From a virus: 34,367 bases of DNA. Positions within the stretch are counted from its first letter, which is position 1, and every line of letters begins with the position of its first letter. The notes below the pieces were generated by a model, which made no database searches, was not told where the DNA came from, and saw only the letters and a program-made list of their open reading frames with translations. The translations under genes were made by a program, and so were the position numbers. Positions 8,759-34,367 of the stretch are shown here, in pieces. Where the stretch lies: positions 1 through 34,367 of the IMG/VR virus record IMGVR_UViG_3300006919_000196; one strand, written 5' to 3'.

Positions 8759-9390
8759 ACGATTTTCATGCTCCCGTCGATGGTTAGCGTCACGCCGCTG
8801 CTGACAGAAATAGGCCCGTGCATTACCGCTGACATCCCGCTGTCAATTGTTGTGTCCCTGGAAATTGATGTTGGGTGCATAAATGCTTTTAGATCCAGTT
8901 CACGCAGCCCCTGGTTTAGATGCGTAGCCCAGACATTTTCAGCGCCTCCAACAACAGGCACCCGGAATCCGTACTGCGGCGTGTCATAATAACTGTTCGC
9001 GGTGGTGTTTAGTTTGCCGCCCATTCCGCTGTGAGCTCCACAATAATAATAAAGGGTCGATGCGGTGCTGTTGGTAACGGAAAGCCTGACTTCAAAGCCC
9101 AGCGTGTAGCTGCCCATGTTTCCGATATTACTGCTGTAGGTGGCGTAATCAGTGCTGTTTCCTCCATAGTAATAAGTCACCCCTGTGGTGTATGCGCTGC
9201 CGCTATTATGCGTTCCATCGCTCGTTGTGGAAAAACGAATTGGATGCCCCTGGTTTGTTGTGCTGTTCTGATTAAAAACATAGGTGTATCCATGCTGCAA
9301 CGTGAGCTCTGCCTGCTGCGTATTATCCACAAAATATTTGTTGCTACTGTCAACTGATGCGACTGTAAAATTAAATGTGTAGTCTGTCAT
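8755..9390 (-). CDS. Tail protein with cupredoxin-like domain
   Basis: 211 residues from the ATG at 9390, chosen because it overlaps the upstream stop as ATGA; a start nine codons earlier is also open. Residues about 1-130 read as a plastocyanin-like fold: LQHGYTYVFNQ, QGHPIRFSTTSDG with His49, and LYYYCGAHSGMGGKL with Cys117, His120 and Met123. These are the four positions that bind type I copper. A C-terminal module (about 160-211, AVMHGPISVSSGVTLTIDG) is fibre shaft-like. Related domains occur in marine phage tail proteins; whether this one binds copper is untested. Confidence 0.65.
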   Translation of the reverse strand: MTDYTFNFTVASVDSSNKYFVDNTQQAELTLQHGYTYVFNQNSTTNQGHPIRFSTTSDGTHNSGSAYTTGVTYYYGGNSTDYATYSSNIGNMGSYTLGFEVRLSVTNSTASTLYYYCGAHSGMGGKLNTTANSYYDTPQYGFRVPVVGGAENVWATHLNQGLRELDLKAFMHPTSISRDTTIDSGMSAVMHGPISVSSGVTLTIDGSMKIV

Positions 9391-16104: not shown

Positions 16105-19100
16105 TTATTCCGAAATCAACCCGTTTCTTTCACGTTGGGCTGCGGCGCCTGCTAATGGAATGGCAAGATAGGGAAGACCTTCACGTGCAGTCTTCTTTAA
16201 TTTTTCGGATAACTTGATATTAGGAAAGTTTTCAACAATGCGGGTTTCGCGGTTGAATTCATCCATCGATGGAAATTCAATTTTCCCCAGTTCAACCTTA
16301 TTGCCTTCGCCAAACTGGTTTTCCAATTTCTGAAGATAGGAAGTGAATTTTTTATCATAAATGAAATCAGCTTTATCATAATCCAGACCGTCCCATCGTT
16401 TCGTTTGCCCTTGTGCGCCGACGAACATGATTCTGTCTGCATCATTTTCCGTCGCAACCTGAACAAGTCTTTTGGCTGCAAGGTTGATCCATTCAGGATT
16501 GTTAGGGTCAGAAACGAAGGGTCCTTTTGGAGTTGTGCCTTGACGTGCAAATGCCTTCGCCGCCTTTTGAGCTCCTTTTGACATCTGCCCAGGATCTACG
16601 GCCTTGATCGGTTCAACGAATTTTTTGCGGACTTCAGGAATTTTTTGCGATTGGTAACCAGCGGCATTCCGAATGATATATTCAGGACCATATTTATAAT
16701 TTCTTTGCTGTAAATCATTCAAAATTTGCAACAAAGGAACTTCAATTTCTTCACTTGGTAAATCGGTTGTCATGTTGGATCGGACGATTGGAACTAATTC
16801 TTCCAATAATTGGCGTCTCCTTATCGACCCTGCATCCATAAGTTCGCTGAAATTAAACGTTATAGATCCGCCTCCTGGTGTGGGTTCGCCACTGCCTATC
16901 GCTTCAAAATCTGGAAATGTGCCGCCTAAACCAGTTGTCATTGAACCTGAAGGGCGGATGCCTAAAACTTCAAGAGCTCGCAGATGCATATTTGTTAATT
17001 CATCATCTGCTTTCATATTCTTAATTACATCCTGGGTGGCTGTTCTTCCTTGATGCTCCCATCCTAAAATTCTATTCGGGCTTCCTGCACCATCAAAACC
17101 TATGACAGCAGGTGATTCTGAAAAATTAACAAGTTGGTTTGTTTCCACTAAAGGCGAACGATCCGCTAATTCTATAATTTTGGAATATGCACCTTGCCCG
17201 AATATTTGATCAATTTCTTCAGGATTAGATTCGTGCATATCAACAATATCAGCGGCTAATGTTTCGTAGAGTGTATTTACCTGTGCATCATCTTCTGCAC
17301 CCATATCAATGGCTTGAGCTATTGCATCATCTTCATTTTGCCATGACATCGTATCAGTCTGACCACCTGGAAATCGGATTGTATATTCACCATTGTCTTT
17401 TTGAATTATCGTATAATCTTCAGGAAGGTATTCATAAAACCTGCTTATGGGCTGCAATGGCTCCTGTGAAGCTGGCGCGTCAAATGCTGAATTGTATTTT
17501 CTAACAGCTTCCTGGACATTAGAAATCATCATTTCGGTATCTTCGCCTTCACCAAATTGATCAAAAAGTAACTCTAATTCACCATTACGAATTGATGATT
17601 CTGTAAATTCTACTTCTTCCTGCCCTGGGCCGAAGATTCTAAATGTGCCTTCAAAATCAACGACAGGTTCAATGCCATACATTTCAAATGTATCCGCGAC
17701 GCCAGCTTTTTGAACCTGATAATTGGTTTGCAGACGCTGGATTGCATTTCTTATATCATTTTCTGCACTCGCTAATTGGGCTGGGTTATATTCGAACGGT
17801 TCTAAGTATGAGTTGATTTGATCATGATCATTTGCTTCGTCATACAATAAAAACCTTTGATTATTTTCCGCATCAAACGCGGAAAAAATGAGCCTTCCCG
17901 TTTGTGGATCAACATCCATTTCAATATTATAAATATCATCTAAAGCATTAGTGATGGCACGATTTTCATCAGCAAATTCTCCAAAAAAAGAAACATTGCT
18001 GGCTTGTGTTTCCATCTGGTCCGCGGTTTGAAACTCGCCTTCCATATCCATTTCGCGCTCAAATCTGTCTAATTCTTCACGCGTCGCATAATATCCTGTT
18101 GAACCATCCGGGCCTTTCATTTGTCCACCGGCAGGAACGAAAACGAGGCCTTCATCTTCAAGGATCTGCTTGAATTCAGCCGTTTCATCTGGATAAAGCC
18201 TAAAGCCCTTTGTAACTCCTGCCTTATTCCAGTCTGACTGAATTTCTTCCACGAGCATCGCGCGTTCACCATTCGGCAAGGTTCTGAAACTGTATCGCTG
18301 ATGCGTAAGGATATTTTTTTCAGGATAATGCGATCCCGGTCCTTGGAAATTAGGATCGTATTCAACTCGTTCATCCTTGCCTGTCACAAAGCTTAATTTA
18401 CCCTTTTCAGGCATATACAAGATCATGTCACGATAAGTTTCATCAGGAATTTGGTCTTCACCTATTTCTGTTTTTCCGCGATATCGGAATTGCCCTGGTT
18501 TTTCTGCCCAATGTGGAGTTTTGTATGATTCTGCAATTTCTTTAACCTGCTTATTGACGTATGGGCCTGTATAATCCGCGACTAAATCAACAACATCCGC
18601 GCCCGTATAAGGCCCCATTTCAGGGCCCATTTTTGGTAATGGATTGGTTTTTGCGAGCTCATCTATATCTTGAGCGAATTCCTTCATATCACTAGGGCTG
18701 TGATCATAGCCAATATCATTGTCGCCAACCCTAAAGACGACACCCGCCCCGCTTTTCGTCGTCATCATGTATGGGTCAACATCGATTTCAACATTGTCAC
18801 GCATCCAATCAGCAAGTTCTTCAGGCAACGTTTCATAATAAGCGCCCATTTTTGCTTCAGATGCTATCTGTTCGCCTAATTCGTCAGGAAACGCCACATT
18901 CGGTAAATATTTCTGTCGCTCAATGATTTCCAGCCGATTTTGGCGCATGAAGCCTTCAAGGTCTTCAATGCCAATCTTTTCATTTTGTGGTAATGCATTC
19001 AGATAATCATCGACACCGATGAATGGCATTTCACGGCCCTTGATTTTGGAAAGAACATTCTTCCATGCTCCCGGTGTGCGTGGTGATTTGTCAGGAAGAT

Positions 19101-19548
19101 CCGCGAGTCCTTTTTCCAAAGGCGAATATAAAAGGTTTCCAGGAGAATCGCCCGGATTGCCTGCCACCCGTCTTGTGATGCCTGCCGCTCCCGGTGTTCC
19201 ATCAAGAAACCCAAAAGCCAATCGATTCATCGTTTCTTCAGGCGTATTCGTGGAAGGTCTAAGGACTCCGACATCTTCCAGTTTTTCTTCAATGAATGCA
19301 GAGCCCAGAAAAGGCTTTTGCATGGATTTTCGGAATGTTGGAATTCCTAGAAGATTAGATGCCGATTTAGGAAGGAGGCTTTCTGCACCCTGCGCCAGAT
19401 AATCCAGCCCAAGAGCAGCAACATCGACCACGCCGCCAGGAATATCAGCAAGAATTCCACGCAGCGCACCCTGCTGTCTTTTATAATAGGGATCGTTTCG
19501 TAATTCAGGTTCGCGATCTTCGTCTATTAGGCCGGAAAGCTGACTCAT
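16105..19548 (-). CDS. Large polyvalent virion protein with EIQSDW module (putative ejected protein)
   Basis: 1147 residues. A Gly/Ala-rich hydrophobic segment (about 27-70) may touch membranes. The first part of a recurrent module lies at about 405-450 (LTHQRYSFRTLPNGERAMLV, then EEIQSDWNKAGVTKGF). Its second half is at about 1010-1050 (PEWINLAAKRLVQVATENDA, RIMFVGAQGQTKRWDGL), split by about 550 acidic residues. In other phages 'VEEIQSDWHQ...KRLLxxAxExGxDxIxWTxGxQQ' is found in polyvalent proteins carried in the head. The C-terminus is hydrophobic (LPYLAIPLAGAAAQ). Position after the portal fits an ejected protein; activity unknown. Confidence 0.6.
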   Translation of the reverse strand: MSQLSGLIDEDREPELRNDPYYKRQQGALRGILADIPGGVVDVAALGLDYLAQGAESLLPKSASNLLGIPTFRKSMQKPFLGSAFIEEKLEDVGVLRPSTNTPEETMNRLAFGFLDGTPGAAGITRRVAGNPGDSPGNLLYSPLEKGLADLPDKSPRTPGAWKNVLSKIKGREMPFIGVDDYLNALPQNEKIGIEDLEGFMRQNRLEIIERQKYLPNVAFPDELGEQIASEAKMGAYYETLPEELADWMRDNVEIDVDPYMMTTKSGAGVVFRVGDNDIGYDHSPSDMKEFAQDIDELAKTNPLPKMGPEMGPYTGADVVDLVADYTGPYVNKQVKEIAESYKTPHWAEKPGQFRYRGKTEIGEDQIPDETYRDMILYMPEKGKLSFVTGKDERVEYDPNFQGPGSHYPEKNILTHQRYSFRTLPNGERAMLVEEIQSDWNKAGVTKGFRLYPDETAEFKQILEDEGLVFVPAGGQMKGPDGSTGYYATREELDRFEREMDMEGEFQTADQMETQASNVSFFGEFADENRAITNALDDIYNIEMDVDPQTGRLIFSAFDAENNQRFLLYDEANDHDQINSYLEPFEYNPAQLASAENDIRNAIQRLQTNYQVQKAGVADTFEMYGIEPVVDFEGTFRIFGPGQEEVEFTESSIRNGELELLFDQFGEGEDTEMMISNVQEAVRKYNSAFDAPASQEPLQPISRFYEYLPEDYTIIQKDNGEYTIRFPGGQTDTMSWQNEDDAIAQAIDMGAEDDAQVNTLYETLAADIVDMHESNPEEIDQIFGQGAYSKIIELADRSPLVETNQLVNFSESPAVIGFDGAGSPNRILGWEHQGRTATQDVIKNMKADDELTNMHLRALEVLGIRPSGSMTTGLGGTFPDFEAIGSGEPTPGGGSITFNFSELMDAGSIRRRQLLEELVPIVRSNMTTDLPSEEIEVPLLQILNDLQQRNYKYGPEYIIRNAAGYQSQKIPEVRKKFVEPIKAVDPGQMSKGAQKAAKAFARQGTTPKGPFVSDPNNPEWINLAAKRLVQVATENDADRIMFVGAQGQTKRWDGLDYDKADFIYDKKFTSYLQKLENQFGEGNKVELGKIEFPSMDEFNRETRIVENFPNIKLSEKLKKTAREGLPYLAIPLAGAAAQRERNGLISE

Positions 19549-21632
19549 TTTTCAAGCAAACCCTGGTTCTTTACGAGTGTTTTCTGTTGTTCAATAATTC
19601 CGCGTATTGCCTGGACATCGGTCGCTGTCTGATATTTGGCCTGCATATCGGCCATCTTCAGATTCGCATCCAATTCCATTTCGGATTGTTTCAAGACTGC
19701 ATCAGTCTGATGTTTATCACGCTGAATGGTAAGTTTTGCTTCTTCGACTGCCATCTGCGCCCTGATCTGTTCCATCTGAACCTGGGCCAGCAATTCTTCA
19801 GGTGATGGCTTTTCAGGTGGAGGTTCAGGCGGCGGAACAGTTGCGGGATCCGTAAAGAATTGGGTGCTGTCTCTAAATCCTGCATATTCCGAAATCTTGA
19901 CGAGCGTATTGTAATACTGTCGAAGATTGACAAGTGGATTCTGCATTCCTGCAATCTGAAGGATCTGTTCCTGCGATTGCTTGATCTGCATCAATGCAGC
20001 CAGTTTTGCTTCTTCATCATTCTGCCCAAGACCCACATTGACAGCGACATCCATGCCTTTATCCCAGGTTCGCGGGTCCATTGGTAAAAACTGATTTCTC
20101 AGTCTGATAATTCGTTCTTTTGGCTGATGTTCGCAAACCAGCTTTAGGATGTGAGAAAACATGGGTTTCATCAGCTGTTCGCTGAAAATTCTTGCAATCA
20201 ACTCACATTTCAAGGCTGCCGCTGATATAGTCGCCTGGACGCCGGCACGTGTTGAACTTTGCAGGCTTTCCGGGTCCAAACCTTGCGCTGATTTGGAAAT
20301 GCCGGTTCTGGTATCCTTCAGCCCGTCATAATATTCCAATACGGGGAACGCAGCCTGTCCCACGAAGGGAACCTGCAACGGTTGGATGGCATTGGGCTGC
20401 CGCATTCTTATAAGGCTCCCGACTGCATCACTATCCATTAGGTCTTCCACATTCACGGCGTTTTCTAGGAATGCCATTCGCGGATGGACGCTTAATGCAA
20501 GGGAGTCCAACAAGGATCGCTGGATGCTGGATTTTACTTCTTGTATGTCCTTGACAAGATCATGGAATCCTAATCCTGTCCAGTCATGCGGCTCAGGATC
20601 ACAGGTTGCGCTGAAGATTGGACAACGGGCAACAGGTTCATTCAATAATACTTTTTCGTGCTGGGCCCCCACCATCAGGATGTGACGCAATTCAGCGATG
20701 CCGTCCCCATCGTAATCGATGCGAACCCAGCATTCCGTTACATGAACCTTCCTTTGGCTTTGATGTGCGTGGACTTCTTCGCTGTCCACCATTTCAGGCT
20801 TTCGTACCGTGTATTCTTCATTGAATTGCAGGGCATCATCATTTCCGCCCAACATGTCTTCAAATTCTTCCAGATCATAACCTAATGCGATGAGCTCGCT
20901 TGACGTCATCATCCTTCGATGACCCACCAGATTCGCGCTGTATAGATCCGTGGCGCTCCTAGAAAGAAAGACCTCTTCTGGCGGCAAGCATTCAATGCGT
21001 ATGCGACCCTTGTCCGTCCTGCGTTGAATGACAGCATCATGCATTGCAGGCATCATCATGCCGTTGTCTTCTTCCTGGCGCGTTTCCAATGAAACCAGGC
21101 TCAGCTCAGGATCACCGAGCATCACCCCTAGTTCATTATCATCCAGGTTTTCATACGTGTAAGTTTCAACTTCTATTTCATCCGACCAATATGCCTTCAT
21201 GAATCCATCACGGCGTATCAGCATATCCTTCAGGCATGAGTGCAGGAGCATGAATCCATTATTATCCTGCGAAAAGATGTAACGGACATAATCTGTAGCC
21301 TGATCCGCATACATAACGTCTTCCGGTCCTTTCGGAACGAATTCAACGACGCGCTCGGATGAATGGAATATTTTCAATAAGGAAGGAAGAACGGCCTGCA
21401 CAGCATCGCGCAGATCCATTGAAACATACTGTGAACGGCCTTCAACTTCATTTCCTAGTTTCTGGCCTTGATAAAATTTCGTTGCTTCGGATCTTTCAGG
21501 CGAAACGAAGTCTTCTATGTAGTCAATAGCATCTTCAACCTGCGCTTTAACGAACGCATGAAACTCATCATCATCCATGCTTTCGCTTTCAGGGCCGGCC
21601 GAAAGCTGATCAATATCTTCTAAGAATTCCAT
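19545..21632 (-). CDS. Portal protein (P22/SU10-like)
   Basis: 695 residues of the P22-type portal family. Visible features: VSPERSEATKFYQGQKLGNE, SQYVSMDLRDAVQAVLPSLL, KDMLIRRDGFMKAYW, VTECWVRIDYDGDGIAELRH, FSATCDPEPHDWTGLGFHDL and the stem helix IQEVKSSIQRSLLDSLA. The C-terminal 120 residues form a charged coiled coil after a Pro run, a barrel-like extension. The start at 21632 lacks a recognisable ribosome site. It heads the leftward structural block and is divergent from the rightward cassette. Confidence 0.9.
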   Translation of the reverse strand: MEFLEDIDQLSAGPESESMDDDEFHAFVKAQVEDAIDYIEDFVSPERSEATKFYQGQKLGNEVEGRSQYVSMDLRDAVQAVLPSLLKIFHSSERVVEFVPKGPEDVMYADQATDYVRYIFSQDNNGFMLLHSCLKDMLIRRDGFMKAYWSDEIEVETYTYENLDDNELGVMLGDPELSLVSLETRQEEDNGMMMPAMHDAVIQRRTDKGRIRIECLPPEEVFLSRSATDLYSANLVGHRRMMTSSELIALGYDLEEFEDMLGGNDDALQFNEEYTVRKPEMVDSEEVHAHQSQRKVHVTECWVRIDYDGDGIAELRHILMVGAQHEKVLLNEPVARCPIFSATCDPEPHDWTGLGFHDLVKDIQEVKSSIQRSLLDSLALSVHPRMAFLENAVNVEDLMDSDAVGSLIRMRQPNAIQPLQVPFVGQAAFPVLEYYDGLKDTRTGISKSAQGLDPESLQSSTRAGVQATISAAALKCELIARIFSEQLMKPMFSHILKLVCEHQPKERIIRLRNQFLPMDPRTWDKGMDVAVNVGLGQNDEEAKLAALMQIKQSQEQILQIAGMQNPLVNLRQYYNTLVKISEYAGFRDSTQFFTDPATVPPPEPPPEKPSPEELLAQVQMEQIRAQMAVEEAKLTIQRDKHQTDAVLKQSEMELDANLKMADMQAKYQTATDVQAIRGIIEQQKTLVKNQGLLEK

Positions 21633-21700
21633 ATTTTGATATTAATTTTACTCAGTATGAGGCTCAAACTGATTTTTTCCAAAAAAAACGCACTTATCAT

Positions 21701-21729
21701 TTGACTTGTGTCAATTTCTGACGCATGAT
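21701..21729 (+). promoter_or_regulatory. Rightward promoter of accessory cassette
   Basis: TTGACT (21701-21706), a 17-base spacer and CATGAT (21724-21729) form a good sigma70-type promoter directed at the gene starting at 21790. The -35 box lies in a small inverted repeat, TTGAC-TTGT-GTCAA (21701-21714). The expected start site near 21736 falls inside the palindrome at 21735-21749. Confidence 0.6.
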
Positions 21730-21734
21730 CCATT

Positions 21735-21749
21735 TTATCAGTCTGATAA
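21735..21749. promoter_or_regulatory. Perfect operator palindrome TTATCAGTCTGATAA
   Basis: A perfect 7-1-7 palindrome at the expected transcription start of the rightward cassette. Its first 13 bases recur exactly at 33808-33820 inside the leftward early promoter. A shared operator is the simplest reading, bound either by the XRE regulator at the right end or by the cassette's own HTH protein. Confidence 0.6.
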
Positions 21750-21789
21750 TCATGCTGATGCTTTAATAACCCTTAAATAAGGATTTGAT

Positions 21790-22353
21790 ATGAATAATTA
21801 TGAAAAAGCCCTCAAAACCATCCTAGAAACCTTCCATGCTAAAAAGGTAAAGGAATTTCGTGGCCATGATGGTTACGGATACAATGCAGACATCTATCTA
21901 GGCAAAAACAAGATTGCAGAAGTGGATGAAGATGGATGGGGTGGTGGATTAAGGATTGATTATGTTTCAGATGAAATGAAGCAGAAATCAGATGAAATCA
22001 TCAATAATCTTCCAAAATGCAAATGGTCAGAATGTGATCAAATCCATGTGGATGATGCAGATGATTCCGAATTTAAATGGGATGCACAATTAGCCTTTGA
22101 TCATGTTGCAACCAATGTTTTACGGATGCGTGATTTCAAAAAGCAGATGAAGAAAATTACATTTATTAAAGATGAACAAATCTTGGCATATAAAACCAAA
22201 TCTTCCGAATTAGATGAAATCTTCAGATTCCAAGATGTTGGATATATGACTTTAAGAGCTCATTTGGAATTGAAGCAAAAAAAGGAAGGAATCAAGGTTC
22301 TGAACTTTCTTCCAGAAAATGAAGCATTTGATCTTTATAGAAAACATTCATGA
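21790..22353 (+). CDS. Unknown protein, first gene of rightward cassette
   Basis: 187 residues. The N-terminal part (about 1-75) includes KEFRGHDGYGYNADIYLGKN, IAEVDEDGWGGGLRIDYV, a motif I have seen in uncharacterised phage proteins ('GHDGxGxNAxIYxxGKKIAxVxDDGxGG'). The rest is charged and helical. AAGGA precedes the ATG. It is the promoter-proximal and largest gene of a cassette that ends in converging overlap with the terminase gene. No function can be assigned; an accessory or anti-defence role is only a hypothesis from context. Confidence 0.6.
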   Translation: MNNYEKALKTILETFHAKKVKEFRGHDGYGYNADIYLGKNKIAEVDEDGWGGGLRIDYVSDEMKQKSDEIINNLPKCKWSECDQIHVDDADDSEFKWDAQLAFDHVATNVLRMRDFKKQMKKITFIKDEQILAYKTKSSELDEIFRFQDVGYMTLRAHLELKQKKEGIKVLNFLPENEAFDLYRKHS

Positions 22354-22363
22354 AAGGAATCAT

Positions 22364-22582
22364 ATGAATATGCATGATATGGTCTGGAAAATTGCAAATC
22401 AGACTTCAAAAAACATGAGTTCTATCAATTATGACGCAAAATACATCAAAGATTGCTTGGAATGGATCAAAGATGATATTCCGATCAATGATGATGAAAA
22501 AATTGCACGGTATTTCGAAGTTATGATGGAAAAACTGGATGACATGATGTTGAAATCAGATATTTATAAGGAAATATCATGA
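22364..22582 (+). CDS. Small acidic helical protein
   Basis: 72 residues from the ATG at 22364, which has AGGA upstream; a longer start at 22319 overlaps the previous gene and lacks a site. It reads MNMHDMVWKIANQ, then IKDCLEWIKDDIPINDDEKI and MMEKLDDMMLKSDIY. It is helical and acidic, with no recognised family. It overlaps the next gene by four bases (ATGA), so translation is coupled to the HTH gene. Confidence 0.55.
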   Translation: MNMHDMVWKIANQTSKNMSSINYDAKYIKDCLEWIKDDIPINDDEKIARYFEVMMEKLDDMMLKSDIYKEIS

Positions 22583-22776
22583 CTCCAGAAGACTTCTATT
22601 TATGTCGTGAAGGAATGGAAATGACTCAAAAGGAACTTGCAAAGACCTTGGAAATTTCCACTTCATCTGTAAGGAATTATGAAAATGGAAGAACTAAGAT
22701 TCCATTATCCATTGAATACATCATGAATAAACGTGATGCCATTTATGATTTCATTCAATACAAAGGAACAAGATGA
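22579..22776 (+). CDS. XRE-type HTH regulator (small)
   Basis: 65 residues, nearly all helix-turn-helix: MEMTQKELAKTLEISTSSVR, NYENGRTKIPLSIEYI. The QKELA...S..SVRNYENGR pattern is the Cro/C1-type fold. A single-domain HTH protein late in a cassette of small unknown genes, with inverted repeats at the cassette promoter, is the arrangement expected of an autorepressor and is also seen for Aca proteins in anti-CRISPR loci. The HTH call is firm; the target is inferred. Confidence 0.75.
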   Translation: MTPEDFYLCREGMEMTQKELAKTLEISTSSVRNYENGRTKIPLSIEYIMNKRDAIYDFIQYKGTR

Positions 22777-22976
22777 TTACAAAAGAAATCAGTTATGCTT
22801 TTTATTGTGAAAATGGTGATTGTGGAGAATCAGAATCCTATTTTCTAGGATCTGGTGGTCCAAAGAAAGATGCAATCCAGATGGCAAAAAAAGATGGATG
22901 GAAGATTAGTCATCAAACAGGATTCAAAAGTGGGATTCCTATACCACGGACTGTTCTTTGTCCTAAATGTAGATAG
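22773..22976 (+). CDS. Small zinc-ribbon-like protein
   Basis: 67 residues: ISYAFYCENGDCGESESYFL, then AIQMAKKDGWKISHQTG and RTVLCPKCR at the end. Two cysteine pairs (CENGDC and CPKC) suggest a zinc ribbon. The central 'A...AKKDGWK' is common in small phage zinc-ribbon proteins. It overlaps the HTH gene by four bases. The role may be nucleic-acid or protein binding; not determined. Confidence 0.55.
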   Translation: MITKEISYAFYCENGDCGESESYFLGSGGPKKDAIQMAKKDGWKISHQTGFKSGIPIPRTVLCPKCR

Positions 22977-22988
22977 AAAGGAAACAAT

Positions 22989-23183
22989 ATGAATAAAGAT
23001 TTTCCTGTCATTACGAATGAATTTGAAGCAAATGTCGTTCAGGTTGCAATGGATCACATGATTGAACATCTGACTGATGTTCTTGAAGATGAAGAACCTG
23101 ACACTCCTGAATATAAGGATGTTGAAGAAAGATTGCATTGGTCTAAATGCATCAAAAACAGACTTGAAGGAATGCTTTTATGA
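22989..23183 (+). CDS. Small acidic helical protein
   Basis: 64 residues, MNKDFPVITNEFEANVVQVA, then HMIEHLTDVLEDEEPDTPEY and a final basic helix. GAAAGGA lies upstream of the ATG. Acidic, helical, without recognised motif. It overlaps the last cassette gene by four bases. Its acidity and size fit an inhibitor-like protein, but nothing in the sequence proves this. Confidence 0.5.
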   Translation: MNKDFPVITNEFEANVVQVAMDHMIEHLTDVLEDEEPDTPEYKDVEERLHWSKCIKNRLEGMLL

Positions 23184-23359
23184 CTGAAGAAACCTTAAAA
23201 TGCAGGCATTGTGAACAGGAATTTGCAAAGGATGCAAAACCTCCGAATGCAGTTTATTGCCATCCATGCATCAATGGCGTAAGTCCAGATTATGAATGGA
23301 AGAATTATATACGTGAAAGGTATGCTTTAGGCAAAAGAATGCATCCTGCAATCAATTAA
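23180..23359 (+). CDS. 59-residue zinc-ribbon protein, last gene of cassette
   Basis: An ATG at 23180 overlaps the upstream stop as ATGA and opens 59 codons: MTEETLKCRHCEQEFAKDAK, then VYCHPCING and a basic helix, YIRERYALGKRM. The CxxC-CxxC pairs indicate a zinc-binding fold. Its stop overlaps the stop of the convergent terminase gene by four bases, so there is no space for a bidirectional terminator. Function unknown. Confidence 0.65.
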   Translation: MTEETLKCRHCEQEFAKDAKPPNAVYCHPCINGVSPDYEWKNYIRERYALGKRMHPAIN

Positions 23360-24732
23360 AGTGCAACCCTCCTTTTAAGTGGTTGGTTCCATGGTGCTAT
23401 GGAGCCACCACTTCCATGATCCATCATCGTAAGAACAAAAGAATCTGCTAAATCAGGGCTTTTTAGGCCTCGTTGCTTGATTTCTTCTTTTGCTTCTATT
23501 TTTAATTTTCCACGCGAATTATAAGTATATTTAGGCACGGATAGCTCGGAAATCAGTTTTCTATCATCTGGAATTCTGCAATCACGCTGTTCAAACCATG
23601 ATTTTGCCTTATCCCACAGTTCTGCTCTCATATTCGCGTATTTATCAGAAGATGGAGTTTCTGAAACATTGATACCCCTTACGGGCAAGCCTAATTCCTG
23701 CATTCTGTCCACAACTCCGGCACCCAGGCCAATGCTGTCCACGAAAATCTGATCTGGTTTGTCAGTTTCATGCGTTTCTTCGTATTCATTGACGACATTT
23801 CCTGTCAATTCCATCAGATCGATGCGATTCCAGATTTTGATCTTTTCCAAAACATGATTTTTCTTCCGTTTGCACAAAGCTGATGAATCCTGTCCATATC
23901 TGGCGACATCCAGGCCCCAAACGATCCCGGCATCAGGATTTACTTCAACATCCCTTTCCACGGCTGCGGCGACGAGTTCCGTAGAAATCAGAACATCGTC
24001 TTCCGTCATTGGAAATTCCGCTAAAACACGGGTACGGTAAACATTGCTGTCTTCGCCGTACATTGCAGCCATTTCTTCAGGATAAGTTTTCGCTACCCTG
24101 GAAGAATCAAAGCAGGAAATTTTAAAATTCGTCCAATCGCCTGACAATCGATGAAATGTTTCGTAAAAATATCCTGTTGGGCGAGTTGGATTTCCTAAAA
24201 GCACGGTGCAGGCGTGTTCTGAAGTCATACTGGAGCCTGCTGCTTCATAAACTGGTTCCGCTACGGCTGCTGCTTCGTCCACTACGAGCAGAACATTTTC
24301 GGAATGGATGCCCTGTAAGGCGTCTGGGGTTTCTGCGCGTGCCGTTTTCGCGACGATAAAGCTTTCATGAGGCGATGCTTTAAGAACCACCCTTTCAGAA
24401 GTGTAATCCAGCCAGTTCCTTATCACAGGAGGAAGGCGTTCTATCCAAATTTTCAGTTCTGAAAACAACGAATCGAATAACTGGGTGCTCGTACAGGCAG
24501 TACAAACCGACTTCTGTGGAATCCGGGTCAAAATATGGAACAAAAGCAACCAGCTTGCACAAGCTGTTTTACCCACACCGTGTCCACTACGTATTGAAAT
24601 CTTGCGATCCCCCCTGGCGAACGCCTCCAAAATGAGCCGCTGCCAGGGTTCAGGCCGCACTTCAAGAACATTTTCCACGAAGGCGACCGGATCTTTATAA
24701 TACCGCTCTAAAAATTGGGTGACTTCACTCAA
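23356..24732 (-). CDS. terL: Terminase large subunit
   Basis: 458 residues. ATPase: Walker A SGHGVGKT (49-56), Walker B VLLVVDE (147-153), and a coupling motif in LLGNPTRPTG (178-187). Nuclease (RNase H fold): GLDVARYGQDSSAL with Asp275, FVDSIGLGAG with Asp332, and SPDLADSF with an Asp at 427 or 430. The protein packages DNA and is complete by length. It is the last gene of the leftward block before the inserted rightward cassette. Overlap of four bases with the upstream small gene indicates coupled translation. Confidence 0.95.
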   Translation of the reverse strand: MSEVTQFLERYYKDPVAFVENVLEVRPEPWQRLILEAFARGDRKISIRSGHGVGKTACASWLLLFHILTRIPQKSVCTACTSTQLFDSLFSELKIWIERLPPVIRNWLDYTSERVVLKASPHESFIVAKTARAETPDALQGIHSENVLLVVDEAAAVAEPVYEAAGSSMTSEHACTVLLGNPTRPTGYFYETFHRLSGDWTNFKISCFDSSRVAKTYPEEMAAMYGEDSNVYRTRVLAEFPMTEDDVLISTELVAAAVERDVEVNPDAGIVWGLDVARYGQDSSALCKRKKNHVLEKIKIWNRIDLMELTGNVVNEYEETHETDKPDQIFVDSIGLGAGVVDRMQELGLPVRGINVSETPSSDKYANMRAELWDKAKSWFEQRDCRIPDDRKLISELSVPKYTYNSRGKLKIEAKEEIKQRGLKSPDLADSFVLTMMDHGSGGSIAPWNQPLKRRVAL

Positions 24733-26048: not shown

Positions 26049-26350
26049 ATCGCATCGTCATTCAATGATTCATTCAATGATAGTAAACATTGCTTCGCAA
26101 ACTCCTGGCTCATCCTATATTGCAATGCTTTAGGAGCATCACGCCATTCAATGAACGTCATGCTTTGGCGTAATTGATCGACGAAGCAATCACAAAGCTT
26201 GAATGCAGTTCGTTGATCATAATCAGGTCGTTCCATCGCCGCATAATGGCAGATCATCCAGATGGTTCTGATTTGTATTGTATCGTAATCACCTTGGTAT
26301 TTACCTGCATACACAGTGAATGGTAACAGTAGAGCGATGATGTATTTCAT
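26045..26350 (-). CDS. Secreted/periplasmic small protein with signal peptide
   Basis: 101 residues from the ATG at 26350, chosen because it overlaps the upstream stop as ATGA. The first residues MKYIIALLLPFTVYAGKYQ are a textbook signal peptide with a likely cut after VYA. The mature part has a Cys pair (CDCF) and aromatic-rich helices (IRTIWMICHYAAMERPDY). An exported protein made from an early phage operon could act at the envelope, for example in superinfection exclusion; this is speculation. Confidence 0.6.
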   Translation of the reverse strand: MKYIIALLLPFTVYAGKYQGDYDTIQIRTIWMICHYAAMERPDYDQRTAFKLCDCFVDQLRQSMTFIEWRDAPKALQYRMSQEFAKQCLLSLNESLNDDAI

Positions 26351-26802
26351 GATGCTTCCCATCTAAATTTCAATTGTCCGTAAATTGGTTGCCAATCTCT
26401 GCCCGGTCTATTCAACCATCCATTTTCATTAGCTTTACTTTCCGCAACGACTTCCCATCCAGCGCCACGCAATGATGCACCACCTTCTTCCTGCAATGTA
26501 TAGGTAATGATCTTTGTATAACCCATTGCCTTTGCAGCCCGCCATGCAGCGCCATAAAGAAAAGAACACGCGTTAGCAATAGGTTTCCAATCATTCACAC
26601 AGCATCTTGTTACTTCCGCTGTGAATCCGTCATCCAGTCTTCTAGCTACAGGTCTTCCCACAATTACGACACCAATGAGTTCTTCACCATCCGATGCACC
26701 AATAGCAAACTTACCTCCTTGCGTTGGTTTATTATGCCTGTGGAAATTAAGCACAAATTCATTCGCTTCCTTTAAGCTGATTGGTACAAGATGCAGCCTG
26801 AT
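26347..26802 (-). CDS. XF1762-like protein (GNAT-like fold suspected); non-AUG start
   Basis: The body matches the XF1762 family: FHRHNKPTQGGKFAIGASDG, VGRPVARRLDDGFTAEVTRC, ACSFLYGAAWRAAKAMGYTK, YTLQEEGGASLRGAGWE, NRPGRDWQP. The first ATG (26754) would remove the conserved N-terminus. Upstream in frame the DNA encodes RLHLVPISLKEANEFVLN, which homologues have right after their initiator. The start is therefore ATC (26802) or CTG (26796), behind TAGGTAGGA. The family occurs in many phages; the fold resembles acetyltransferases and the substrate is unknown. Confidence 0.75.
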   Translation of the reverse strand: MRLHLVPISLKEANEFVLNFHRHNKPTQGGKFAIGASDGEELIGVVIVGRPVARRLDDGFTAEVTRCCVNDWKPIANACSFLYGAAWRAAKAMGYTKIITYTLQEEGGASLRGAGWEVVAESKANENGWLNRPGRDWQPIYGQLKFRWEAS

Positions 26803-28572: not shown

Positions 28573-28902
28573 TCACAATTCAGGCGAAATCAGTTTCGAA
28601 TTGAATGACTTGCCTTCCTTCGTGACAAGGATGAAACGAAACCAGGGAAAACGGGTTGCAGCGACTTTCAACTTCACGTTCGCATCGTCACGCATCCATC
28701 CTTTCGTTTCGTGGAATTCCATGTGTTCTTCCGTGATCACAAAGAAATCCGGTGTATAAAAGGTTTTATTCGCGAGCCTTAACTTCATTCCTTCATACCT
28801 GAAATCCTGAATGACTCCTGTCCGTTTAAGGAACGCCAGATGTTGCCCATAGGCAGTTTCCAGTTTATTCGCCCCTTCGAAATCTCTGATAATTGGCTTC
28901 AA
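28573..28902 (-). CDS. PD-(D/E)XK nuclease, DUF1064-like
   Basis: 109 residues starting with TTG at 28902 inside the end of the methyltransferase gene. It reads NKLETAYGQHLAFLKRTG, RLANKTFYTPDFFVI, MEFHETKGWMRDDANVKLKV, and PWFRFILVTKEGK. Asp52 of YTPDF with Glu65 and Lys67 of HETKG form the nuclease signature, and the arrangement is that of DUF1064 (PF06356). A phage Holliday-junction or recombination nuclease is a reasonable guess. It sits in the replication-modification block. Confidence 0.75.
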   Translation of the reverse strand: MKPIIRDFEGANKLETAYGQHLAFLKRTGVIQDFRYEGMKLRLANKTFYTPDFFVITEEHMEFHETKGWMRDDANVKLKVAATRFPWFRFILVTKEGKSFNSKLISPEL

Positions 28903-30118
28903 GTTCTTTAATCCGCATTAATGGGATACAAGCAACAGCAGGCACGATGGAATTACCGAGCGCTTTGAGCTTGTGGTTCCGTTCTTCTTCATTTACTGTC
29001 ACTCTCGGGATACTAGGTTCTTCTTCCCAGAAACGCGCAAAAGCCAATCTAAGGGATAACCCATCAACCACGTCACCCAGGCCGGAGAAAGTTGGGCTTT
29101 CTTCCCGCTTTTCTTGTGTTCTTCGTTGATCGCGAAATCTACGTTTAAGCTGGCTCCGATTTTTGCTCCAGATGGTCTGGTTTCTCCGCGTTCCTTCCGA
29201 TCCGCTGATGTCGGGTCCAATGGGAACTCCCCCAGCAATGCCGTTGGTGTCGCATAACTCCGGGCTACGGCCTGCGTCAATGGAAAATGCAGATTGATTC
29301 CTTGCTTCGCTTTCTCTTCGTGCCGTTTCTGCCATTTCTCCGGGGGTTCGATAGATGTATCGGCTGCGCAAGGTGTTGGCCAATTCCTTTCCATCTTCTG
29401 GACCGCATTCGGAAGGTTCTGCCCGTCGAATCCTAGACCCTTGTGATCCCTCGCCATGGGAGTCGGCCATCTGTCCTGTTCCTGAATCGCCACCCATCTG
29501 TCCAGAGTCATTTGCATTTTGCCCTGCCTTGTCATTTCCAATGAATGTTCGCCTTTTCCCGCTTGGGAGGCAGTCGGAGTCGGCACAGACGATCCAGATT
29601 CGTTTACGCAGATGAGGTGCTCCCAATTCTTGCGCGGATACAACTCGCCATTCCGCATCATACCCGATGAGGGAAAGCTCTCCAAAAACGGTTCTGGCCC
29701 AATTTCCTCCATCCCCGGTAACGAGGCCTGCGACGTTTTCCATGAGTAGGTATCTGGGTCGAATTTCGCTTGCCAATCGAATGATTTCGCTGAACAAAGA
29801 AGACCTCGATCCCGTGATGCCTGCACGCTTGCCGGCGGATGAGAGATCCTGACATGGAAACCCTCCCGTGATGATGTTGATGTTTCTGCATCCATCCCTG
29901 GCAAGTTGATCTGCTGTGAGTTTTGTAACATCGTCATAAATTGGAATGTCGCCTACATTCTGCTTAATGATTGGGTGAACCCATTTTTCAATATCGCAAG
30001 CGGCGACGGTTTTAAATTGAATTTCTTTTTCATAATTTCTGATGATCTGCATCGCCAAGGCAAAGCCTGCAATGCCGGTAAATAGATCAAGATGATTTAA
30101 GACAGTTTTTTGGATCAT
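28865..30118 (-). CDS. C5 cytosine DNA methyltransferase
   Basis: 417 residues with the ordered C5-MTase motifs: DLFTGIAGF (11-19, SAM binding), GGFPCQDLSSAG (85-96, catalytic Cys89), LLMENVAGL (124-132), QELGAPHLRKRIWIV (163-177) and LKALGNSIVPAVA (384-396). The target-recognition part (about 185-340) has three to four ADSxGxG-like repeats (MADSHGEGSQG, LANTLRSR, CDTNGIAGG). It probably methylates phage DNA against host restriction. A 312-codon frame on the same strand, one base over, lies wholly inside it and reads as a second conserved protein. Confidence 0.9.
   Translation of the reverse strand: MIQKTVLNHLDLFTGIAGFALAMQIIRNYEKEIQFKTVAACDIEKWVHPIIKQNVGDIPIYDDVTKLTADQLARDGCRNINIITGGFPCQDLSSAGKRAGITGSRSSLFSEIIRLASEIRPRYLLMENVAGLVTGDGGNWARTVFGELSLIGYDAEWRVVSAQELGAPHLRKRIWIVCADSDCLPSGKRRTFIGNDKAGQNANDSGQMGGDSGTGQMADSHGEGSQGSRIRRAEPSECGPEDGKELANTLRSRYIYRTPGEMAETARRESEARNQSAFSIDAGRSPELCDTNGIAGGVPIGPDISGSEGTRRNQTIWSKNRSQLKRRFRDQRRTQEKREESPTFSGLGDVVDGLSLRLAFARFWEEEPSIPRVTVNEEERNHKLKALGNSIVPAVACIPLMRIKELEANYQRFRRGE
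28999..29937 (-). CDS. Overprinted second protein nested in the methyltransferase gene (WPTP/WLMG family)
   Basis: 312 codons, same strand, one base out of frame with the methyltransferase. It carries the motifs of a widespread phage family found near C5 methyltransferases: FDPDTYSWKTSQ (59-70), FPSSGMMRNGELY (88-100), VPTPTAS (118-124), WPTPMARDHKG (157-167), WPTPCAAD (186-193), YATPTA (228-233) and LSPAWVTWLMGYPLDW (283-298). The bases that give SGMMRNGEL give GYDAEWR in the methyltransferase, and those that give WPTPMARD give MADSHGE. A translation start at 29937 is plausible but no clear ribosome site is seen. Role unknown, perhaps modification-linked. Confidence 0.55.
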   Translation of the reverse strand: MTMLQNSQQINLPGMDAETSTSSREGFHVRISHPPASVQASRDRGLLCSAKSFDWQAKFDPDTYSWKTSQASLPGMEEIGPEPFLESFPSSGMMRNGELYPRKNWEHLICVNESGSSVPTPTASQAGKGEHSLEMTRQGKMQMTLDRWVAIQEQDRWPTPMARDHKGLGFDGQNLPNAVQKMERNWPTPCAADTSIEPPEKWQKRHEEKAKQGINLHFPLTQAVARSYATPTALLGEFPLDPTSADRKERGETRPSGAKIGASLNVDFAINEEHKKSGKKAQLSPAWVTWLMGYPLDWLLRVSGKKNLVSRE

Positions 30119-33766: not shown

Positions 33767-33823
33767 TCTGATAATATAGCGATATGTTGTCTGATTAATC
33801 ATTCGGATTATCAGTCTGATTGT
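33767..33823. promoter_or_regulatory. Operator repeats of the early control region
   Basis: Three TCTGAT-type boxes lie at 33767 (TCTGATAAT), 33790 (TCTGATTAAT) and 33815 (TCTGATTGT), 23-25 bases apart. The last is part of TTATCAGTCTGAT (33808-33820), identical to the operator of the rightward cassette. The boxes cover the leftward promoter. Confidence 0.55.
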
Positions 33824-33826
33824 CAA
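33798..33826 (-). promoter_or_regulatory. Leftward early promoter
   Basis: On the minus strand: consensus TTGACA (33826-33821), a 17-base spacer and AATGAT (33803-33798). The operator TTATCAGTCTGAT fills the spacer. It would start transcription near 33791 and drive the excisionase-like gene and the recombination operon. Confidence 0.65.
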
Positions 33827-33937: not shown

Positions 33938-34106
33938 TGCATTAGCTGATTATTTTTCTTTAAACCTTAATGGATTTGATAGATATGAACCGAATTTATG
34001 CAAAGCATTCAAAGAAAAGAAGTCATACTTTCAAGCATCCGCCTCCGTATGGCTTGAAAGATCAAACTGGTTCAATAAACCCAGAATAAAAAAATTATGG
34101 AAATAA
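33921..34106 (+). CDS. Unknown small protein upstream of repressor
   Basis: 61 residues with a good AAGGAG five bases before the ATG: MEMENNALADYFSLNLNGFD, EPNLCKAFKEKKSYFQASA, then WLERSNWFNKPRIKKLWK. Aromatic and basic at the end. It overlaps the XRE gene start by 10 bases, so the two are co-translated. No family recognised. Confidence 0.5.
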   Translation: MEMENNALADYFSLNLNGFDRYEPNLCKAFKEKKSYFQASASVWLERSNWFNKPRIKKLWK

Positions 34107-34367
34107 AAAAGAATCGTACTGCTATGAATCTTTCACAGAAGGATCTTGCAGAAAAATTAGGAGTGCCCACAAACACAGTCTATAAGTGGGAAAAGGGGCT
34201 CCTTAATCCATCAAAGAAGAATCTGGAAAGATTGGAAGCAGTTTTTTCAGGACAGGAATTGGATATTCAGACTGATGTTCAGTCGCTTAAACAACGCATC
34301 AAAGATTTGGAAAGGATTATTGATGCTAAAGATGAATTGATTGATGTCTATAAAAAGGCATTGGAAA
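34097..34367 (+). CDS. XRE-family regulator, N-terminal part (runs off right edge)
   Basis: An ATG at 34097 overlaps the upstream gene. 90 codons are visible: NRTAMNLSQKDLAEKLGVPT, NTVYKWEKGLLNPSKKNLER form a Cro/C1 helix-turn-helix, followed by a coiled coil (VQSLKQRIKDLERIIDAKDE). The HTH plus coiled coil suggests a dimeric repressor. It is divergent from the leftward operon and next to the TCTGAT operators, its probable targets. The C-terminus is outside the window. Confidence 0.75.
   Translation, partial: MEIKKNRTAMNLSQKDLAEKLGVPTNTVYKWEKGLLNPSKKNLERLEAVFSGQELDIQTDVQSLKQRIKDLERIIDAKDELIDVYKKALE

Follow-up and report, generated by a model that had tools for sequence, protein, structure and literature searches.

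Morons of lambdoid and other temperate phages lie between two co-oriented core genes, have an orientation of their own and a deviant GC content, and are absent from relatives. In acr-aca operons, the Aca gene is located downstream of the acr genes and the core promoter contains the inverted repeat, with predicted sites in published operons no more than 150 b from the initiation codon (PMC9410906). Accessory loci of prophages are often antisense to the lytic genes (PMC7067206). In archaeal viruses, anti-defence genes can be recognised by an early regulatory motif that they have in common (PMC11065993), which serves here as an analogy only. We analysed a window of 34,367 nucleotides, namely a single IMG/VR virus record (IMGVR_UViG_3300006919_000196), containing a cassette that resembles phage morons in position, orientation, composition and absence from relatives. 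The cassette differs from them in comprising six genes, in having an operator in common with an early control region, and in that no terminator was found by a simple stem-loop and T-run scan of positions 21500-23500, a type of scan that can miss real terminators.

Six plus-strand ORFs fill positions 21790-23359 between the genes for the portal (19545..21632, minus strand; SU10_portal, E = 1.3e-189) and TerL (23356..24732, minus strand; phrog_2, E = 5e-45). The ORFs overlap or are closely spaced, with 4-b start/stop overlaps between genes 2/3, 3/4 and 5/6, and the stop of gene 6 overlaps that of the convergent terL by 4 b. Each starts with ATG and has a GGA-containing Shine-Dalgarno-like site upstream. 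Chained ORFs with both features cover 1560 b of the cassette, whereas shuffling this sequence 500 times at the dinucleotide level never gave more than 483 b and two ORFs. The six-gene rightward block between portal and terminase, proposed in a sequence-only reading of this DNA, is thus real. Leftward orientation of all surrounding genes, as stated in the same reading, applies with the exception of two rightward ORFs at the right end of the window (starts 33921 and 34097). GC content is 34% in the cassette versus 42% in the window.

Gene 1 (21790..22353) encodes a phrog_17767-type protein of 187 aa with a predicted mixed alpha/beta fold. It is followed by gene 2 (22364..22582; 72 aa), an acidic orphan with an ATGA overlap with gene 3, and by gene 3 itself (22579..22776; 65 aa), a single-domain HTH_3 protein (E = 4e-8) and candidate repressor or autorepressor, which bears out the earlier placement of an HTH protein in third position. 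Gene 4 (22773..22976; 67 aa) has two Cys pairs, zinc-ribbon-like by motif, and a weak phrog_926 match, while gene 5 (22989..23183; 64 aa) is an orphan and gene 6 (23180..23359; 59 aa) carries a CxxC...CxxC motif. The products had been described as mostly acidic or zinc-binding, which is correct only in part. Acidity was found for genes 1, 2, 3 and 5 (pI 5.9, 4.6, 6.2 and 4.4, respectively), whereas genes 4 and 6 have pI values of 8.7 and 7.7 together with their Cys-pair motifs, from which zinc binding is only a guess.

Elsewhere in the window, the gene adjoining that of the portal (16105-19548, minus strand) encodes 1147 aa without a Pfam or PHROG match. Also encoded are a Mom-like DNA modification protein (26347-26754, minus strand; phrog_1384, E = 5e-31) and a C5 cytosine methylase (28865-30118; PF00145, E = 4e-41), and the phage therefore probably uses modification of its own DNA as protection from restriction, a trait that does not depend on the cassette.

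Relatives of TerL and portal were gathered as approximately 150 loci from viral contigs, along with TerL relatives in genome contigs; because some fetched loci come from the same contig, the counts refer to loci and not to independent phages. The aligned relatives are 47-54% identical in TerL and 37-42% in portal. The block as a whole is not conserved among them, as about 110 related loci with TerL and portal lack it, and the only homologue of genes 1-6 detected in TerL/portal relatives was one weak match to gene 1 (L066). Where both genes are present in the same order, the gap between them ranges from 148 b to about 6.9 kb, and its genes almost always share the orientation of terL; those in genome contigs all do, except for one 94-aa call (L204). 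Based on the absence of the cassette from relatives and on a gap that is variable and co-oriented, we interpret the cassette as a moron-like insertion at a variable site. This is in agreement with the sequence-only reading, which put the block forward as a candidate moron, as are its AT-rich composition and own orientation.

Opposite-strand genes directly after terL were found in only five loci (L007, which is phage C72C1, L125, L135, L150 and L156), none of which has a gene in common with the cassette. One of these, L135 (IMGVR_UViG_3300006565_000001), has eleven reversed genes in the gap (L135:3293-8638), encoding ArdC (ArdcN, E = 2e-19; zincin domain, E = 3e-35), Mom (E = 4e-36), a serine resolvase (E = 1e-13) and a weak Tpt1/ART-like protein, among others. 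The L135 block is like the cassette in its site and reversed orientation, and unlike it in gene number and in every gene. Considering the variable gap, the reversed cargo of some loci and ArdC with Mom in L135, this slot has sometimes taken up reversed genes, on one occasion plainly anti-restriction genes. A conserved HTH gene with variable cargo, as expected of an acr-aca locus in the sequence-only reading, was not found: no HTH match occurred among the scanned reversed proteins of relatives, and close relatives of gene 3 were found neither in viral contigs nor in phages.

Phage C72C1, for which we found no literature, also has three separate opposite-strand mini-cassettes among its packaging and head genes (L171, at 8916-9326, 17119-17873 and 20123-20528). 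By eye, the promoters of two of them (17119 and 20123) look alike, both being of the form TTGAC...TATAG. A shared operator between a reversed block and the repressor region of this phage was sought and rejected, with nothing longer than 9-mers in common.

The cassette had been credited with its own promoter and operator, of which the operator is the better founded. Upstream of gene 1, a sigma-70 match (TTGACT-17-CATGAT; 21701..21729, plus strand) marks a possible promoter, but the region holds four such matches compared with 7.9 in shuffles, and since this is not above chance the promoter is a putative one. An inverted repeat, TTGAC-TTGT-GTCAA (21701..21714), of which this is the only copy in the window, lies over the predicted -35, and a putative operator pair, ATCAGTCTGAT and ATCATGCTGAT, follows at 21735..21759. 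These two inverted repeats are no more than 90 b from the start codon of gene 1. Compared with the core-promoter repeat of acr-aca operons, TTGAC-N4-GTCAA covers the predicted -35, whereas ATCAGTCTGAT lies downstream of the predicted -10 and outside the core promoter, the promoter itself being uncertain.

The putative operator is also found in a second control region, where TTATCAGTCTGAT is repeated exactly at 33808 (33808-33820), within the spacer of a predicted early leftward promoter (TTGACA-17-AATGAT; 33798..33826, minus strand; 10/12 match). This region is divergent and separates the early leftward genes from the HTH gene at 34.1 kb, which encodes a second HTH_3 regulator (34097..34366, plus strand), is divergent from the early leftward operon and is cut by the contig end. 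Among 2000 shuffles, 14 gave a word of at least 13 letters common to both control regions. Exact ATCAGNCTGAT has three copies in the window versus 0.07 expected, and ten copies with at most one mismatch versus 1.76 expected; among all fetched loci, the pattern was found in the window only. By these statistics, ATCAGTCTGAT is a real motif and a putative operator, and its recurrence in the divergent control region at 33.8 kb is new here. Based on this recurrence, the cassette is probably part of the early or repressor circuit of the phage rather than a free-standing acr-aca unit, and the palindrome may not be a private Aca site. The portal gene holds one exact copy (19701-19711) and one near copy (20098-20108) of the putative operator. 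Chance is an unlikely source of the exact copy, and the shared-circuit model leaves both unexplained, so the motif may have another role.

Gene 1 matches phrog_17767 (E = 2e-4), a PHROG family without a characterised function, and by tblastn it matches conserved hypothetical proteins of AAT-1, phiH1, Donnerlittchen, and other Pamexvirus and Mesyanzhinovviridae phages. The phrog_17767 proteins of AAT-1, PaMx28, DLP4 and Donnerlittchen are homologous to gene 1 over a core with G-x-G...GG motifs, but they are longer (223-256 aa) and have an extra N-terminal part. Homologues in Pamexvirus and Mesyanzhinovviridae phages sit in a block after the nucleotide-metabolism genes thyA, dCMP deaminase and DHFR, with no HTH neighbour listed, unlike in the cassette. 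A profile scan with gene 1 yielded eleven viral loci. The nearest relative (L172/L173; 38% over the whole length) is located between TerL and portal, with small neighbours, in a phage with a different TerL, and another (L180) opens a rightward cluster divergent from terS/terL and adjoins a methyltransferase-like gene, a reading made by eye with no Pfam match. Roseomonas plasmids encode a further relative (hhalign probability 98%) near genes for a C5 DNA methylase and ssb, as at L264:3941-4435 on plasmid NZ_CP024587.1. Among the whole records of 50 relatives, gene 1 was found in one (L066), in an opposite-strand block before terS. The family was found in 0/369 and 0/385 sampled proteobacterial genomes, and a scan of the genome contigs gave no match; a closely similar profile recovered the copy in L066, which shows that such a search can detect at least one genuine family member. 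Judged from sequence, gene 1 belongs to an uncharacterised mobile-element family of phages and Roseomonas plasmids, whose members appear to lie in early or establishment-type contexts.

The AlphaFold2 model of gene 1 is confident (pLDDT 92), although the structure prediction that the sequence-only reading had proposed led to no clear match among solved structures. Comparison with the PDB gave no significant hit (Foldseek best E = 0.095; VIA-align best Z = 3.7), and AcrF10 (Z = 2.9) and AcrIF24 (Z = 2.7) were rejected as fold matches, lying at noise level among unrelated rows. In the viral library BFVD, the fold matched uncharacterised phage proteins only. A structural or replication role for gene 1 was likewise set aside, as our searches found no match to either function.

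Gene 3 encodes a minimal HTH_3 protein, the nearest natural solved structures of which are CylR2, the 434 repressor and HipB, all of them weak matches. Its NCBIfam and PADLOC matches include no Aca-named entry, although it may yet be related to an Aca family. For the cassette, Pfam, NCBIfam and PADLOC gave no sign of membership in known Acr, Aca, anti-defence or toxin-antitoxin families, returning general HTH matches only. In line with the earlier remark that no protein resembled a familiar inhibitor, none matched a known Acr, Aca or defence inhibitor. Against phages, genes 2, 5 and 6 had no match or only matches with E > 0.1. Since genes 2, 4, 5 and 6 are orphans or near-orphans, the operon is untraceable as a unit.

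Building on the observed operon structure, the insertion status and the operator sequence common to both control regions, we lean, by a little more than an even chance, towards a horizontally acquired early operon of moron type that was inserted into the variable gap between TerL and portal in this tailed phage and is convergent to terL. It is probably best read as an accessory early operon under repression by an HTH protein. Under this model, a host-polymerase promoter within 21633-21789 would become active upon infection, at the same time as the leftward early promoter at 33.8 kb. An HTH protein (that of gene 3, that at 34.1 kb, or both) would subsequently bind ATCAGTCTGAT at both sites and shut both promoters off, which would restrict antisense transcription running into terL and portal. 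More tentatively, the products, that of gene 1 in particular, may act early on the host cell in host takeover or counter-defence. An anti-defence role, which had been put forward for the cassette, is plausible by context only: one distant relative has ArdC and Mom at the same site, also reversed, and genes for DNA methyltransferases are located close to two relatives of gene 1.

A more specific proposal is an operon of acr-aca type in which genes 1 and 2, or all the small genes, inhibit CRISPR-Cas or another defence, with gene 3 as an Aca-like autorepressor of its own that acts on the inverted repeats of the cassette promoter. Short orphan genes, a small single-domain HTH gene, two inverted repeats within the distance reported for published operons, and ArdC and Mom at the equivalent locus of L135 are all consistent with it. 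However, the HTH gene is third of six rather than last after a short acr run, no Acr or Aca annotation was matched, guilt by association is unavailable for a gene 3 that has no close relative in viral contigs, and the palindrome occurs again at another phage promoter. Gene 1, moreover, is larger than a short inhibitor and comes from a broad phage and plasmid family. The layout described in the sequence-only reading is therefore a weak one, and we consider an acr-aca operon improbable.

The common operator could also fit two other readings. The cassette might be a lysogenic-conversion moron, expressed from a prophage for the benefit of the host or for superinfection exclusion, its level being set through the operator by the phage repressor. 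Its orientation within lytic genes fits the antisense accessory loci of prophages, the operator is shared with a repressor-type control region, and some TerL relatives reside in bacterial genome contigs. Lysogeny is only a possibility here, though, as no integrase was found among the scanned window proteins (the contig is possibly incomplete) and the zero counts for the gene-1 family in proteobacterial genomes argue against a common prophage gene; we regard lysogenic conversion as doubtful. Alternatively, gene 3 might be a Cro-like switch that turns the early leftward promoter off, with antisense across terL delaying the packaging genes and the remaining genes as hitch-hikers. The 4-b convergent overlap with terL, the operator in both control regions and an HTH protein in the 434/CylR2 size class agree with such a switch. 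Nonetheless, nothing about five of the six genes suggests a regulatory role, and the late genes of almost all relatives are ordered although no such block is present, which leaves a primarily regulatory function very improbable.

Returning to the moron-type early operon, its broadest extension would be that gene 1 is a counter-defence or DNA-protection protein common to unrelated phages and plasmids, with a fold lacking a clear PDB match, and at the same time that anti-defence cassettes under control of the early repressor circuit have repeatedly landed in the TerL-portal gap of this phage group. We consider this combination unlikely. The novelty of the locus is modest: the cassette is a new one of moron type, and one of its genes belongs to an interesting, widespread family. 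The cassette draws attention to a site of variable insertions in a large group of uncultured phages, and gene 1 represents an uncharacterised, widespread mobile-element protein family with a confident predicted fold. The shared operator offers a direct handle, as an early-promoter motif could be used to list the anti-host genes of such phages, as in archaeal viruses (PMC11065993).
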